This document shows, in pieces, positions 11,161-16,989 of a stretch of 64,000 bases of DNA. A model generated the notes under the pieces. That model was not told the DNA's origin. It was given only the letters and a program-made list of their open reading frames with translations, and searched no databases. The first letter of the stretch is position 1. The number at the start of each line of letters is the position of its first letter. The translations under genes were made by a program, and so were the position numbers. Origin of the DNA: Sulfurihydrogenibium sp. YO3AOP1 (GTDB lineage: Bacteria > Aquificota > Aquificia > Aquificales > Hydrogenothermaceae); NCBI RefSeq assembly GCF_000020325.1, contig NC_010730.1:889501-953500 (forward strand), read 5' to 3'.

Positions 11161-11820
11161 TTATTCATCTTTAAACTTAGCTTTAACATGCGTGCCATCG
11201 CAAAATGGTTTGTTTTTAGACAATCCACATCTACAAAGAGTTACTCTATTTCTAATCTTATAAAACTTATTTTCTTCATATTCTATAGGTACTCCACCTT
11301 TAACCCAAATAGGACCACTTAAACCTATTACAGTATCTTCCAAAATACTAATTTCGGGCTCAAAATCAGGCTCTATTTCATTACCATTTTTATCAAAAAT
11401 AACCAACCTCCCTGATGGACAATTAAATGCTATCTCTTTAATTATCTCTTCCTTACCTTCTTTATTCAATAACTTCCAAATTCCACCATCTCTTAAACAA
11501 AACCTAGCAGAAGAACATAGAGGTTTAATATCCAATAAATCATATTCTAGACCTTCATATTTAACAGCTTCAAGATTATCTAAATCCTCTTTAGTTATTA
11601 ATTTGTCATCTTTAAAGTCATTTCTATGTGAACCATCACAAAAAGGTTTATTCTTAGATAATCCACACCTGCATAGGGCATAATTCTCTTTAGTTTCATA
11701 CTTCTTAACCTTTATCCATTTCAAGGGAATAGACATCTTATACTTTTCATTAGTTTCTTTATACAAAGGAATATTTCCGGATACTAAGTAAGGACCATTA
11801 GGAACAATTTTTATCTTCAT
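11161..11820 (-). CDS. Protein with two CDGSH iron-sulfur motifs
   Basis: The protein (219 residues from ATG 11820) has two CDGSH motifs, CRCGLSKNKPFCDGSH near residue 55 and CRCGLSKNKPFCDGTH near the C terminus. Each should bind a 2Fe-2S cluster with three Cys and one His. The middle region holds CSSARFCLRDGG and CPSGRLV, which resemble the Fer4_19-type part seen in multidomain CDGSH proteins. Function is unknown; redox or cluster transfer is likely. I chose ATG 11820 over GTG 11835 because a GAGG lies 9 nt before the ATG, within the longer frame. Confidence 0.85.
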   Translation of the reverse strand: MKIKIVPNGPYLVSGNIPLYKETNEKYKMSIPLKWIKVKKYETKENYALCRCGLSKNKPFCDGSHRNDFKDDKLITKEDLDNLEAVKYEGLEYDLLDIKPLCSSARFCLRDGGIWKLLNKEGKEEIIKEIAFNCPSGRLVIFDKNGNEIEPDFEPEISILEDTVIGLSGPIWVKGGVPIEYEENKFYKIRNRVTLCRCGLSKNKPFCDGTHVKAKFKDE

Positions 11821-11895
11821 TTTAAAAAACCTCACAAAAGGAATAGATATAATAAATATTATGAAGAAAAAGAAATTTGCAAATTAGAGGAAATC

Positions 11896-13378: not shown

Positions 13379-13467
13379 TGTCATTCTGAAGCCGACGAAG
13401 AATCTCCTGTTTTTTCAAATCAAAAAATTAATAGGAGATCCTTCGGACTAAAGCCCTCAAGATGACA
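13379..13467. repeat. Complete dispersed inverted repeat unit, reverse orientation
   Basis: TGTCATTCTGAAG...GAATCTCCT (13379-13408) and AGGAGATCCTTCGG...GATGACA (13433-13467) form the two arms of the common hairpin repeat around an A/T-rich loop. The flank after it (GGAAAGACAAACTTACAAAA...TTTTGGAACAG) is also repeated near 29170. The DUF151 frame can be extended through this unit, but that extension is spurious. Confidence 0.85.
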
Positions 13468-13578
13468 AGGAAAGACAAACTTACAAAAATTTTGGAACAG
13501 TCTCGCCTATCTCCACTTGCAAAAATTCAAAATTTTAGTATATTAATGACAGATAGTTTTATAATAGAGGTGATAGAT

Positions 13579-14154
13579 ATGGTAAAGGTTATCGTAAAAT
13601 CAATAGCGATAGATTCATTGACAGGAAGTCCAATAGTACTTTTAGCTAATGAGGAAAATCAAAATGATGTATATCCAATATGGATAGGAATAGCTGAGGC
13701 AGAGGGTATAGTTGTAAACCAAAGTGGGTTTATTCCACCCAGACCTTTGACTTATGATTTATTTAAAAACGTCATAGAGGCTATTGATGGAAAAGTAAAG
13801 GAAGTAAGAATTATTGATATGGTAAATAACGCATACATTGCAAACATAGTAATTCAACAAGGAGATAGAGAAATAATCATAGATTCAAGACCAAGCGATG
13901 CAATTAATTTAGCTTTAAGATTTAATAGTCCAATTTATCTAAATGAACAGGTTGTCAAAAAACTAAATGTAGAGGAATTGAAATCTCAAGAAAAAGATGA
14001 AGAAATACAAACAGTCGAAGACCTTGAAAGACAGACAGAAACTCCAAAATTAGATTTAGAAAAAACAGAAGAAATTAGTATAAAAGATGAAGATTTAGAA
14101 AAGTTTAGAGAAATGCTTGAAAACATAAAACCTGAGGATTTTTTAACTAAGTAA
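13579..14154 (+). CDS. Bifunctional nuclease family protein (DUF151)
   Basis: From ATG 13579 the 191-residue protein has a DUF151/BFN domain (VKSIAIDSLTGSPIVLL, VYPIWIGIAEAEGI, DSRPSDAINLALR) and an acidic tail of about 60 residues. The family is reported to act on DNA and RNA. The frame runs back to 13462 but enters a dispersed repeat, and AGAGGTGAT sits 5 nt before 13579, so I take the later start. The acidic tail resembles the UvrB/UvrC-like extension seen in some members, but is not clear. Confidence 0.88.
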   Translation: MVKVIVKSIAIDSLTGSPIVLLANEENQNDVYPIWIGIAEAEGIVVNQSGFIPPRPLTYDLFKNVIEAIDGKVKEVRIIDMVNNAYIANIVIQQGDREIIIDSRPSDAINLALRFNSPIYLNEQVVKKLNVEELKSQEKDEEIQTVEDLERQTETPKLDLEKTEEISIKDEDLEKFREMLENIKPEDFLTK

Positions 14155-14171
14155 ATGATAAAATATATTAT

Positions 14172-14744
14172 GTGGAAGTCAAAATTGGAAGTACGAAGCT
14201 TATTTTAACAATAGGTGATATAACAGAAAGTGAAACAGAAAGTATAGTCAATGCAGCTAATTCTACCTGTATGGGTGGTGCCGGTGTAGATGGTGCCATC
14301 CATTCAAAAGGTGGTCCTCAAATACTTCAAGAATGTATTAAAATTAGGAAAACCCTATACCCAGATGGTCTTCCTCCCGGAGAAGCAGTAATAACAACAG
14401 GCGGAAATTTAAAAGCCAAGTATGTTATTCATACAGTAGGTCCTATATGTAATGGTCCTTTGACAAAGCATCAAAAACAAATCCTAAAAAATGCTTATCA
14501 AAATAGTCTTAAATTAGCTTTAGAAAAGAATATAAAATCTATATCTTTCCCGTCCATTAGCACTGGAGCATACCGCTGTGATGTAAAAGTAGCATCAAAA
14601 ATAGCACTCAAAGCGGTGATAGATTTTTTAAAACAAAACCCAAATAAATTAGATTTAGTCGCTTTTGTCCTATTTACTCCAGAAATTTATCAGGTTTATA
14701 AAACATCTCTTGAGGAAATCCTTAATGCAAATATCAATGATTGA
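14172..14744 (+). CDS. Macro-domain protein (ADP-ribose binding or hydrolysis)
   Basis: The 190-residue protein is one macro domain: GDITESETESIVNAANS, GGAGVDGAIHSKGG, HTVGPIC and SFPSISTGAYRCD. This is the MacroD/YmdB group, which removes ADP-ribose from proteins or deacetylates O-acetyl-ADP-ribose. The start is GTG at 14172; the ATG at 14170 is in another frame. It overlaps the next gene by 20 nt and heads a four-gene overlapping cluster with a two-component system. Confidence 0.9.
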   Translation: MEVKIGSTKLILTIGDITESETESIVNAANSTCMGGAGVDGAIHSKGGPQILQECIKIRKTLYPDGLPPGEAVITTGGNLKAKYVIHTVGPICNGPLTKHQKQILKNAYQNSLKLALEKNIKSISFPSISTGAYRCDVKVASKIALKAVIDFLKQNPNKLDLVAFVLFTPEIYQVYKTSLEEILNANIND

Positions 14745-15528
14745 TTTTATTCTTATATCTGTAATCGCTTTAATAGTGATGCTGTATGCTTATTATAGAT
14801 ATAGAGAAGAAAAACACAAAGAAGAAAAATTATTAATTCCAAAACTTGAATCCTATAAAGAGAAATTTTTAGAAGAGAAAAAAAACTTTATCAAAAGATC
14901 TCAAGAACTTATAGATAAAATGGAAGAAGTCAAAAAAGAGATAGAAAATTTAAAAAACAAATATCATGAATACCCATGGACAGAATCTCAAATCAAATAT
15001 CTAAAAACCATGAAAGGCTCAGAATTCGAATATTATTTAACCACAGCTTTCCAAATGCTTGGGTTTATTACAATAGATTTACCTTTTTATAAAGACCATA
15101 ACCTTGACTTAATTATAAAGTATGAAGATAACAACAAAACAGAATATATAGCGGTTGATTTTTTAGATCATACAGAAATAAAAAAGTTAAATGAAAAATA
15201 TGTAGAAGATTTACTTCAAGGCAAAGAAAAATATGAATGCGGCAAGCTTTTGATAATAACAAATGGTTATTTAGATGATAATATAAAAAAATTTTTAATA
15301 GAAAATGATATTAACTTCTTTGAGATTGACCAGATTGTAAGATTTATTCCTTCTTTAAATTTCTTTTATAGATACGAAGAATTAAAGGGAAGTTTTCATA
15401 ATTACGAAATATTACATAAAGAAGCTTTTGATGAAGTTATAAGAAGAGAACATTGGCTTTCAGAGGTAGAAGAACAATTAATAAAAGCGTTGGAAAAGAA
15501 AAATGAGAGTACTTATAATAGAGGATGA
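14725..15528 (+). CDS. Membrane-anchored coiled-coil protein with degenerate Mrr-like nuclease fold
   Basis: From ATG 14725 (267 residues) there is a membrane helix near residues 5-22, a charged coiled coil to about residue 85, and a domain like Mrr-type restriction endonucleases: GSEFEYYLTTAFQMLGF, then HNLDLIIK, then EYIAVDF, then KLLIITNGYLDDNIKKF. In active Mrr nucleases the third site is (E/Q)xK; here it reads VDF, so the catalytic lysine seems lost. It overlaps the macro gene by 20 nt and the response regulator by 26 nt. A sensing or scaffold role is my inference. Confidence 0.6.
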   Translation: MQISMIDFILISVIALIVMLYAYYRYREEKHKEEKLLIPKLESYKEKFLEEKKNFIKRSQELIDKMEEVKKEIENLKNKYHEYPWTESQIKYLKTMKGSEFEYYLTTAFQMLGFITIDLPFYKDHNLDLIIKYEDNNKTEYIAVDFLDHTEIKKLNEKYVEDLLQGKEKYECGKLLIITNGYLDDNIKKFLIENDINFFEIDQIVRFIPSLNFFYRYEELKGSFHNYEILHKEAFDEVIRREHWLSEVEEQLIKALEKKNESTYNRG

Positions 15529-16147
15529 TTTACTACTTGGAGAAAGTCTTAAAGATTATCTTGAAAATAACGGTATAGAATGTTTATGGATTAGCAATGA
15601 AAGAAAATTAGAAGAAGCTTTAAGCCTTTCAGAATTTGATGTAATCGTTCTTGATTTGATACTCAGGTATTCAAAAGGTGAGGATATACTAAGAAATCTT
15701 AGAAATAAAAATGTAAAAACTCCAATTTTAATAATGACAGCCAAAAACTCTATTAAAGATAAAGAAACATGTTTTAACTTAGGTGCTGATGATTACATAA
15801 TAAAACCTTTCGACCCAAAGGAGTTTTTACTTAGAATAAAAGCTTTAAGCAAAAGAGCTCACCTTCCAGAAAAAATAAAAATAGGGGATGTTGAGATAGA
15901 TTTAGAAAATCAAATTGTTTTAAAAGATGGAAAAGAAGTAAAACTAACCAAAACAGCATGGACTTTGCTGTATTATCTTATAAAAAATAGAGGAAAAGTT
16001 GTAAGCAATGAAAACATTTTAAACTACGTTTGGCATGATAAAGCTGTAGGAGATGAAGTAATAAGAGCTTACATAAAAGAACTTAGAAAGATTCTTCCTG
16101 ATGGAAGCATTGAGACATTTAAAGGAAGAGGATATAAATTAAATTGA
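15503..16147 (+). CDS. OmpR-family response regulator
   Basis: The 214 residues hold a receiver domain (IEDDLL, phospho-acceptor Asp51 in VLDLIL, KPFD with Lys101) and a C-terminal winged helix (LTKTAWTLLYYLIKNRGKVVSNENILNYVW, IRAYIKELRKIL). It should bind DNA when phosphorylated by the kinase encoded next, which it overlaps by 4 nt. Its targets are unknown. Confidence 0.94.
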   Translation: MRVLIIEDDLLLGESLKDYLENNGIECLWISNERKLEEALSLSEFDVIVLDLILRYSKGEDILRNLRNKNVKTPILIMTAKNSIKDKETCFNLGADDYIIKPFDPKEFLLRIKALSKRAHLPEKIKIGDVEIDLENQIVLKDGKEVKLTKTAWTLLYYLIKNRGKVVSNENILNYVWHDKAVGDEVIRAYIKELRKILPDGSIETFKGRGYKLN

Positions 16148-16989
16148 AGCTTGAAACGAAAATATTTATTCTCATATCTCTTATTTTTATAATAAGCCTT
16201 TCTATGATCAATTTTATTAATCTTTACTATATTAATGACTTAATAGAAAAATACCAGCAGCTCCAAAATATATTGAAACAGCAAAATCAGCTCCCTGTAG
16301 TATTTCAAGATAACCTAAAATCTTATAAAAGTGAATATAGTAAGATGGTAATACTTTGGGAAACTTTTTTAGTTTTTGGTTCTATAATTTTAATTTATTA
16401 TTTGACATCTATATACTTAAAAAAAGAAGAAAGATATAAACAGTTTCTACAACTTATGATTTTATCCATCAGTCATAAGCTTGGAAATAAGATTTCAAGT
16501 CTTAACATAAATTTAGAATTAATAAAATCAAACTGTAATAATCAAGCTGTCGATAGATTAGAAAAATCTTTAATTTCTTTAAATGAAGACCTAAAAACTC
16601 TTTTAAGCACACTCAAAAAAATTCAATTTGAAAGAAAAGAAGAAGAAAAATTTAGAGTTGACGAATTAGTTTTAAAGCTCCTTGAAGAATTTAAGCCTTT
16701 TGAGAATAAAGTTTTCGTAAGATTAAAACCTTTGAAAAGTTTTAAGAATAAATCTGACATAGAGGCTATTATTCAAATAATATTAGAAAATGCTTTTAAA
16801 TATTCAGAAAATAAGGTATACATAAAGATTTACAAAACAAATTTAATAATCAAAAACGACATTAAAAATGAAATAGAAAGTGGAAGTGGATTAGGCTTAC
16901 TTATAGTTGAAGGACTATCAAAATTAAATAACTTAAAAGTTATAAAAAGAGTGAAAGGGAAATATTTTACTATTTGTCTTGCTTTTTAA
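16144..16989 (+). CDS. Sensor histidine kinase, compact form
   Basis: The 281-residue protein has two membrane helices (about 9-27 and 73-92) around a 45-residue outer loop, then the H box SISHKLGNKISSLN, an N box (IIQIILENAFKYSE) and GSGLGLLIVEGLSKL. The usual DxGxG box is not obvious; the catalytic domain is short. It starts with TTG overlapping the regulator stop, and its 3' end overlaps the convergent rpoZ by 20 nt. Confidence 0.88.
   Translation: MKLETKIFILISLIFIISLSMINFINLYYINDLIEKYQQLQNILKQQNQLPVVFQDNLKSYKSEYSKMVILWETFLVFGSIILIYYLTSIYLKKEERYKQFLQLMILSISHKLGNKISSLNINLELIKSNCNNQAVDRLEKSLISLNEDLKTLLSTLKKIQFERKEEEKFRVDELVLKLLEEFKPFENKVFVRLKPLKSFKNKSDIEAIIQIILENAFKYSENKVYIKIYKTNLIIKNDIKNEIESGSGLGLLIVEGLSKLNNLKVIKRVKGKYFTICLAF

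Follow-up and report, generated by a model that had tools for sequence, protein, structure and literature searches.

In the genome of Sulfurihydrogenibium sp. YO3AOP1, the gene for a MacroD-type macro-domain protein is directly followed by the gene for a membrane-anchored, Mrr-like protein, and this pair is kept by nearly all members of the family Hydrogenothermaceae (f1), which includes Sulfurihydrogenibium and Persephonella. Both genes lie in the window, that is, the whole 64,000-nucleotide stretch of DNA analyzed here (positions 889501-953500 of a single-contig genome of 1,838,442 bases, labeled G000 among the compared genomes). We propose, tentatively and with a probability of roughly 0.45, that the two proteins form an ADP-ribose module, in which a dedicated membrane adaptor serves a hydrolase, and that this module is part of the family's normal equipment. 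A preliminary description of the same DNA had combined the pair with the response regulator and histidine kinase genes behind it into a possible stress or defense sensor of four genes; as a conserved unit, this four-gene reading falls.

Results

Conservation of the gene pair

Sixty-one genomes of the order were examined, and the Mrr-like protein is present in 31 of the 37 that belong to the window's family and in none of the 24 from the order's two other families. A profile search across the phylum (136 genomes) found it in 35 of 41 Hydrogenothermaceae, and the other 95 genomes gave one weak match, confined to the coiled-coil part. In 29 of the 31 genomes, the gene directly upstream of the Mrr-like gene is a macro gene (28 pairings were seen in loci, and that of G009 was taken from coordinates), an adjacency that exceeds chance and bears out the earlier suggestion of a tie between the nuclease fold and an ADP-ribose enzyme. 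At 23 of 28 junctions the two genes overlap by 1 to 20 nucleotides, and the remaining five have gaps of 1 to 3 nucleotides. Furthermore, of 22 genomes checked, 19 have no macro gene besides that of the pair; G011 carries one more, and G015 and G019 have none. In G015, the Mrr-like gene is also broken by stops. Both genes are absent from five genomes of the family, each less than 90% complete, and in no genome of the family is the Mrr-like gene seen to be missing behind this macro gene; G024, the sole macro-only genome, has a contig that ends inside the macro gene.

The surroundings of the pair vary. A gene for a bifunctional nuclease domain protein (BFN) precedes it in the window's genus (the window, G002, G003, G004, and G006), an M16-like peptidase gene follows it in several genera, and in another genus it is flanked by molybdopterin-enzyme-like and cytochrome genes, named here from their sequences. 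These neighbors look like housekeeping genes, and they are reshuffled among genera while the order and the junction of the pair persist. A contig scan for the pair outside the phylum, with patterns that reach close relatives only, gave 22 loci, all titled Sulfurihydrogenibium, Persephonella, Hydrogenothermus, Hydrogenothermaceae, or Aquificota. A description of the pair was not found in the literature searched, which included passages of PMC8195603, PMC11490716, PMC7159879, PMC5413906, and PMC1189080 and outside of which most subscription papers lie.

Three alignments underlie the residue counts given below. The Mrr-like alignment (A1) holds 28 of 30 loci, with the broken L017 and L026, at a contig end, left out and the window standing for L001; the macro alignment (A2) holds 27 of 28 macro genes, without L012; and a third alignment (A3) combines the window with 20 of the 22 scanned loci, without the fragments L083 and L084 (row L078 begins two residues before its ATG, and row L080 is truncated).

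In the tree of the Mrr-like proteins, all five genera with several members each fall on one side of a branch, with low support for the window's genus (74/47); in the macro tree, this applies to three of four such genera, and genus g8 needs two changes. In a comparison of the window with G002, the ratio of nonsynonymous to synonymous substitution rates is 0.07 for the macro gene, 0.16 for the Mrr-like gene, and 0.14 for the regulator and kinase genes. Judged from these sequence comparisons, the pair is inherited largely vertically under purifying selection, unlike a defense or toxin module.

The macro protein

The macro domain of the preliminary description was confirmed and is of the MacroD type (Table 1). 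Its family profile matched the solved structures of OiMacroD (5fud, 8e-60, the best match), YmdB (1spv, 1.4e-53), and MacroD2 (4iqy, 8.4e-53), and the NCBIfam model NF001664 scored 188.8 bits, slightly below its cut-off of 200. The catalytic residues of OiMacroD as given in passages of PMC5413906 (N27, N30, D40, H44, and Y134) are invariant in all 27 aligned macro proteins. Position 37 in the catalytic loop is Gly in 24 of the 27; the window and G002 have Ala there, and G004 has Leu. According to the same passages, the G37V variant of OiMacroD had a kcat of 0.13 compared to 0.48 per second and showed the lowest removal of mono-ADP-ribose (de-MARylation). Since this exchange weakened the enzyme at the same position, Ala37 may reduce macro activity in the window's lineage, by an analogy that is limited by Ala not being Val.

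The membrane-anchored Mrr-like protein

The anchor, the coiled coil, and the Mrr-like fold that had been ascribed to the second protein all hold. In 30 of 30 family rows, the best 19-residue hydropathy (1.65 to 3.01) is found at the N-terminus, and because basic residues come after the hydrophobic segment, the head is predicted to lie in the cytoplasm (positive-inside rule). The AlphaFold2 model (mean pLDDT 91.7, pTM 0.72) consists of one long helix (residues 5-78), the head, and a second helix (residues 211-266). Modeled helices 34-80 and 211-267 together align with antiparallel coiled-coil stalks; matches of the stalk to Smc, the dynein stalk, and V-ATPase D were taken as a common helical arrangement and not as kinship. 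When the Mrr-like profile was searched against the sequences of solved structures, most of the chains matched were coiled-coil or helical. Structure comparison of the head gave AF1548 (Z 10.7, root-mean-square deviation 2.9 over 107 aligned residues), FokI (Z 9.7, 3.1 over 120), Can2 of Sulfobacillus (Z 9.1, 3.0 over 104), and AspBHI (Z 8.8, 3.5 over 122), and Mrr_cat matches 27 of 28 members at E values up to 0.1. Outside the head, the C-terminal helix between residues 233 and 247 is the most conserved part, and its residues E233, E237, R240, R241, W244, and E247 are proposed as a putative partner-binding site.

The (E/Q)xK motif of the nuclease had been read as VDF (V144-D145-F146). The canonical lysine is indeed gone, and only the register has to be shifted by one residue: when the protein is aligned with plasmid relatives in which QAK is retained, the Q falls on D145, the A on F146, and the K on L147, and across the family the motif reads DF(I/V/L). 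No lysine occurs in columns 144 to 148 of any of the 28 rows, so that the D...(D/E/Q)xK lysine is missing from its usual place, and column 147 is occupied by I (10), V (10), L (6), M (1), and A (1). D145 is present in 25 of the 28 rows, with S, A, or Y in the other three, and D148, at whose place the plasmid relatives have R, is invariant. The usual nuclease chemistry thus appears, from the aligned residues, to be missing from the Mrr-like head. The register was fixed by the plasmid relatives; hhalign to the classical Mrr proteins of the phylum was too weak for this purpose. PF22722 (NACHT-associated inactive restriction endonuclease, NA-iREase1) matches 28 of 28 members at E values up to 0.1, with the window protein below the cut-off, and was not accepted as proof of inactivity because active-looking Mrr proteins match it too. 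The window's genome also encodes a classical Mrr protein (Mrr_N and Mrr_cat, with QAK; L130:1033-1938, G000:C1 near 166079).

The two-component system

The four open reading frames with overlaps of 20, 26, and 4 nucleotides are as first described, and the last two encode a receiver with a Trans_reg_C domain next to a histidine kinase, that is, a two-component system of the OmpR/PhoB type with a weak kinase match. The claimed tie between the sensor kinase and the macro and Mrr-like genes was not borne out. Among the loci examined, the regulator and kinase genes follow the pair only in the window and G002; of the relatives' 29 loci, the other 28 do not have them beside the pair, several of those contigs ending soon after it. 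In seven genomes (G001, G003, G004, G006, G012, G019, and G015), their orthologues lie together, the stretch examined contains neither macro nor Mrr-like genes, and in all but G015 rpoZ, gmk, and nuoN follow on the opposite strand; the contig of G005 starts within the regulator gene and is uninformative on its neighborhood. Unlinked genes in relatives, which the preliminary description had named as grounds against itself, are therefore found for the regulator and kinase and not for the macro gene: gene order keeps the macro gene with the Mrr-like gene and does not include the other two in a conserved four-gene set.

The Mrr-like protein of the window ends in NESTYNRG, which is the start of the regulator gene read in another frame and is absent from genus members outside the window and G002. 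Because only these two have this tail and its codons lie in the first bases of the regulator gene, their arrangement is probably a join of two units, created via a deletion. The two-component system is a recent neighbor and not part of the macro/Mrr-like module.

Table 1. Coordinates of the genes, protein parts, and sites discussed, numbered from the first position of the window
Feature	Positions	Strand	Evidence or remark
Gene with a bifunctional nuclease domain (BFN), immediately preceding the pair in the window's genus	13462..14154	+	PF02577, 5e-35
MacroD-type macro-domain protein, 190 residues, GTG start	14172..14744	+	Pfam Macro, 7.2e-40
Catalytic loop, residues 36-42, GAGVDGA, Ala instead of Gly at position 37	14277..14297	+
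Membrane-anchored Mrr-like protein, 267 residues, ATG start	14725..15528	+	Pfam Mrr_cat, 7.2e-11 over residues 93-207
Predicted transmembrane helix, about residues 3-24, basic residues C-terminal of the helix	14731..14796	+	Hydropathy
First half of coiled-coil stalk, residues 25-80, invariant R25, Y26, E28, E29, K32, P39, E51	14797..14964	+	Alignment and model
Restriction-endonuclease-fold head, residues 85-210	14977..15354	+	Structure comparison of the model
D128, invariant first aspartate of the nuclease motif	15106..15108	+	28/28; also present in plasmid relatives
D145-F146-L147, in the place of Q/E-x-K, lysine absent	15157..15165	+	Alignment with QAK relatives
C-terminal stalk helix, residues 211-266, invariant E233, E237, R240, R241, W244, E247	15355..15522	+	Alignment and model
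26-nucleotide overlap of the last Mrr-like codons (NESTYNRG) with the first bases of the regulator gene	15503..15528	+
OmpR/PhoB-type response regulator, separate unit	15503..16147	+	Pfam Response_reg and Trans_reg_C; gene order in relatives
Short histidine kinase, separate unit	16144..16989	+	HATPase_c, 0.0085, weak, below Pfam cut-off

Elsewhere in the window (11161-11835, minus strand) lies a gene for a protein with two CDGSH iron-sulfur stretches and a divergent 4Fe-4S domain (Fer4_19).

Possible sources of ADP-ribose

A SIR2 gene is found in 53 of the 61 genomes, unlinked to the pair, and four genomes (G003, G007, G022, and G031) have the pair and no SIR2 match. The sirtuin was therefore rejected as a partner and kept as a possible source of O-acetyl-ADP-ribose, which MacroD-type enzymes hydrolyze (passages of PMC5413906). 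The SIR2 protein of the window's family is divergent (best matches 1e-19 to 1e-27, profile 1-150), whereas that of the two other families is classical (1e-45 to 1e-60); the copy in the window's genome (L114:3591-4415, G000:C1:1348590-1349414) keeps the catalytic His. The divergent SIR2, which most genomes of the family have, could supply O-acetyl-ADP-ribose.

Discussion

In our model, the macro protein would be a working enzyme that hydrolyzes ADP-ribose esters (O-acetyl-ADP-ribose or mono-ADP-ribosyl groups), and the Mrr-like protein its membrane-anchored, non-cutting partner, in which a transmembrane helix and a coiled-coil stalk carry a head with the restriction endonuclease fold. The head would bind nucleic acid or another substrate without cutting it by the usual mechanism, and the partner would place the hydrolase at the membrane. 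The conserved pairing, the overlapping or near-touching genes, the predicted fold, the lost lysine, and the intact catalytic residues of the macro protein are seen in the sequences and the model; physical interaction of the two proteins, binding by the head, and the substrate are inferred. In a more specific version, the silenced head on its membrane stalk would recognize its target, either nucleic acid carrying ADP-ribose or something bound to the membrane, and hand it over to the MacroD-type hydrolase, as a core function of these thermophiles outside defense; this version is conceivable and, on balance, doubtful.

Several observations weigh against the module. A dedicated ADP-ribose writer was not found: DarT occurs in 3 of the 61 genomes and not in G000, and KptA/Tpt1 was found in none of 22 genomes, which led us to reject the route through ADP-ribosylated RNA. 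Pairwise identities of the macro and the Mrr-like proteins correlate modestly (Spearman 0.43, 26 genomes), and G019, a genome 99% complete, has an intact Mrr-like gene and no macro gene. Foldseek alone placed AspBHI first at an E value of 0.01, with no match below 0.001. Moreover, K123 and K169 are conserved in 28 of 28 rows and K153 and K154 in 25 of 28 each, and the lysine can migrate within the PD-(D/E)XK superfamily (passages of PMC1189080), so that cutting could persist. The Mrr-like protein might then still act as a membrane-tethered, RmuC-like nuclease whose lysine has moved, the macro protein clearing ADP-ribose from the same substrate. Such a role would fit the retention of D128 (28/28), D145 (25/28), and E102 (26/28) next to these lysines, as well as the similar build of RmuC (passages of PMC1189080), a protein scoring above its Pfam cut-off in only 2 of 61 genomes. 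However, the canonical position is hydrophobic in all 28 rows, the residue behind it is the invariant D148 where the plasmid relatives have R, and D145 is replaced by S, A, or Y in three rows; we consider a relocated lysine improbable, though worth keeping in mind.

It is also imaginable that the genes are together for shared expression only, with the macro protein scavenging sirtuin-made O-acetyl-ADP-ribose and the membrane protein unrelated to it. The frequency of SIR2, the known O-acetyl-ADP-ribose hydrolysis by MacroD-type enzymes, and the solitary membrane protein of G019 speak for this view, but order and junction survive the reshuffling of the flanks among genera and four genomes have the pair without a SIR2 match, which makes it an unlikely explanation that nevertheless merits attention. 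The four-gene sensor finds its basis in the overlapping genes of equal direction in the window and G002 and in the purifying selection on the regulator and kinase genes. It is opposed by the seven genomes in which the latter stand apart from the pair and by the 28 of 29 relatives' loci without them, and a role in defense is unlikely: matches to defense families in PADLOC were weak, no phage record matched, and the pair is single copy, near-universal in the family, largely vertical in its trees, and surrounded by housekeeping-looking genes. As a conserved system, this sensor is largely refuted and very improbable. Macro domains serve as antitoxins in DarTG, and a short pair of overlapping genes would suit a similar module (toxin-antitoxin or anti-phage) in which the macro protein would be the antitoxin. 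However, DarT is not found beside the macro gene, being absent from G000 and present in only 3 of the 61 genomes, and a near-universal single copy with genus groups mostly intact in both trees does not resemble such a module, which we regard as hardly credible. In G011, which also has the pair, a DarT gene is directly followed by the second macro gene (L061, G011:C28:626-1651), likely a DarTG system.

In our judgment, partners and substrates are what it takes to understand the role of bacterial stand-alone MacroD-type enzymes, and a partner gene kept family-wide beside the enzyme offers a handle on the substrate. The Mrr-like protein also presents a case of a nuclease fold under purifying selection after loss of the catalytic lysine, and the window is a reminder that genes overlapping in a single genome may have been joined only recently from separate units.

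Comparison with known systems

Membrane Mrr proteins encoded on plasmids of Priestia, Bacillus velezensis, and Aeromonas likewise combine an N-terminal hydrophobic segment with an Mrr_cat head and share 22 to 27% identity with the window protein over approximately residues 81-220; they differ in keeping QAK and a topoisomerase-type zinc ribbon and in having neither the long stalk nor the C-terminal helix. Two genes on the Aeromonas plasmid pNe-1 (L160:2830-4027) overlap by 47 nucleotides: one encodes a membrane Mrr protein whose QAK and zinc ribbon are intact, the other a macro protein of a different class. This was treated as an isolated case and not as a general pairing, for only this one of seven plasmid neighborhoods has both genes. 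On Bacillus and Brevibacillus plasmids (L161, L162, and L165), a DNA topoisomerase gene has as its neighbor either a gene for a membrane Mrr protein or a macro gene of the class seen in Aeromonas.

RmuC, as described in passages of PMC1189080, is likewise built from a membrane helix, a coiled coil, a PD-(D/E)XK core, and a further coiled coil, but its coiled coils are longer, and the window protein does not match the RmuC family PF02646, which has no match in G000 at all. Replacement of RmuC by the Mrr-like protein was considered and dismissed, because RmuC is rare in the whole order and not only in the window's family, so that its absence is no pointer to replacement.

In the SirTM/Zn-Macro operons (passages of PMC11490716), too, a macro gene of the MacroD type belongs to a tightly packed set of overlapping genes. 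Their macro proteins carry a Zn-loop, whereas the glycine-rich loop GG(G/A/L)G is kept here, and their linked sirtuin lacks the His, whereas the SIR2 protein of G000 keeps HG and is encoded elsewhere. With OiMacroD, YmdB, and human MacroD1 and MacroD2, the macro protein of the window shares a profile match over the whole length and all five catalytic residues; unlike theirs, its gene sits with that of a membrane-anchored Mrr-like protein, and residue 37 is Ala and not the Gly of OiMacroD. Not found described before in the literature searched, the partnership is family-wide and made of known parts.

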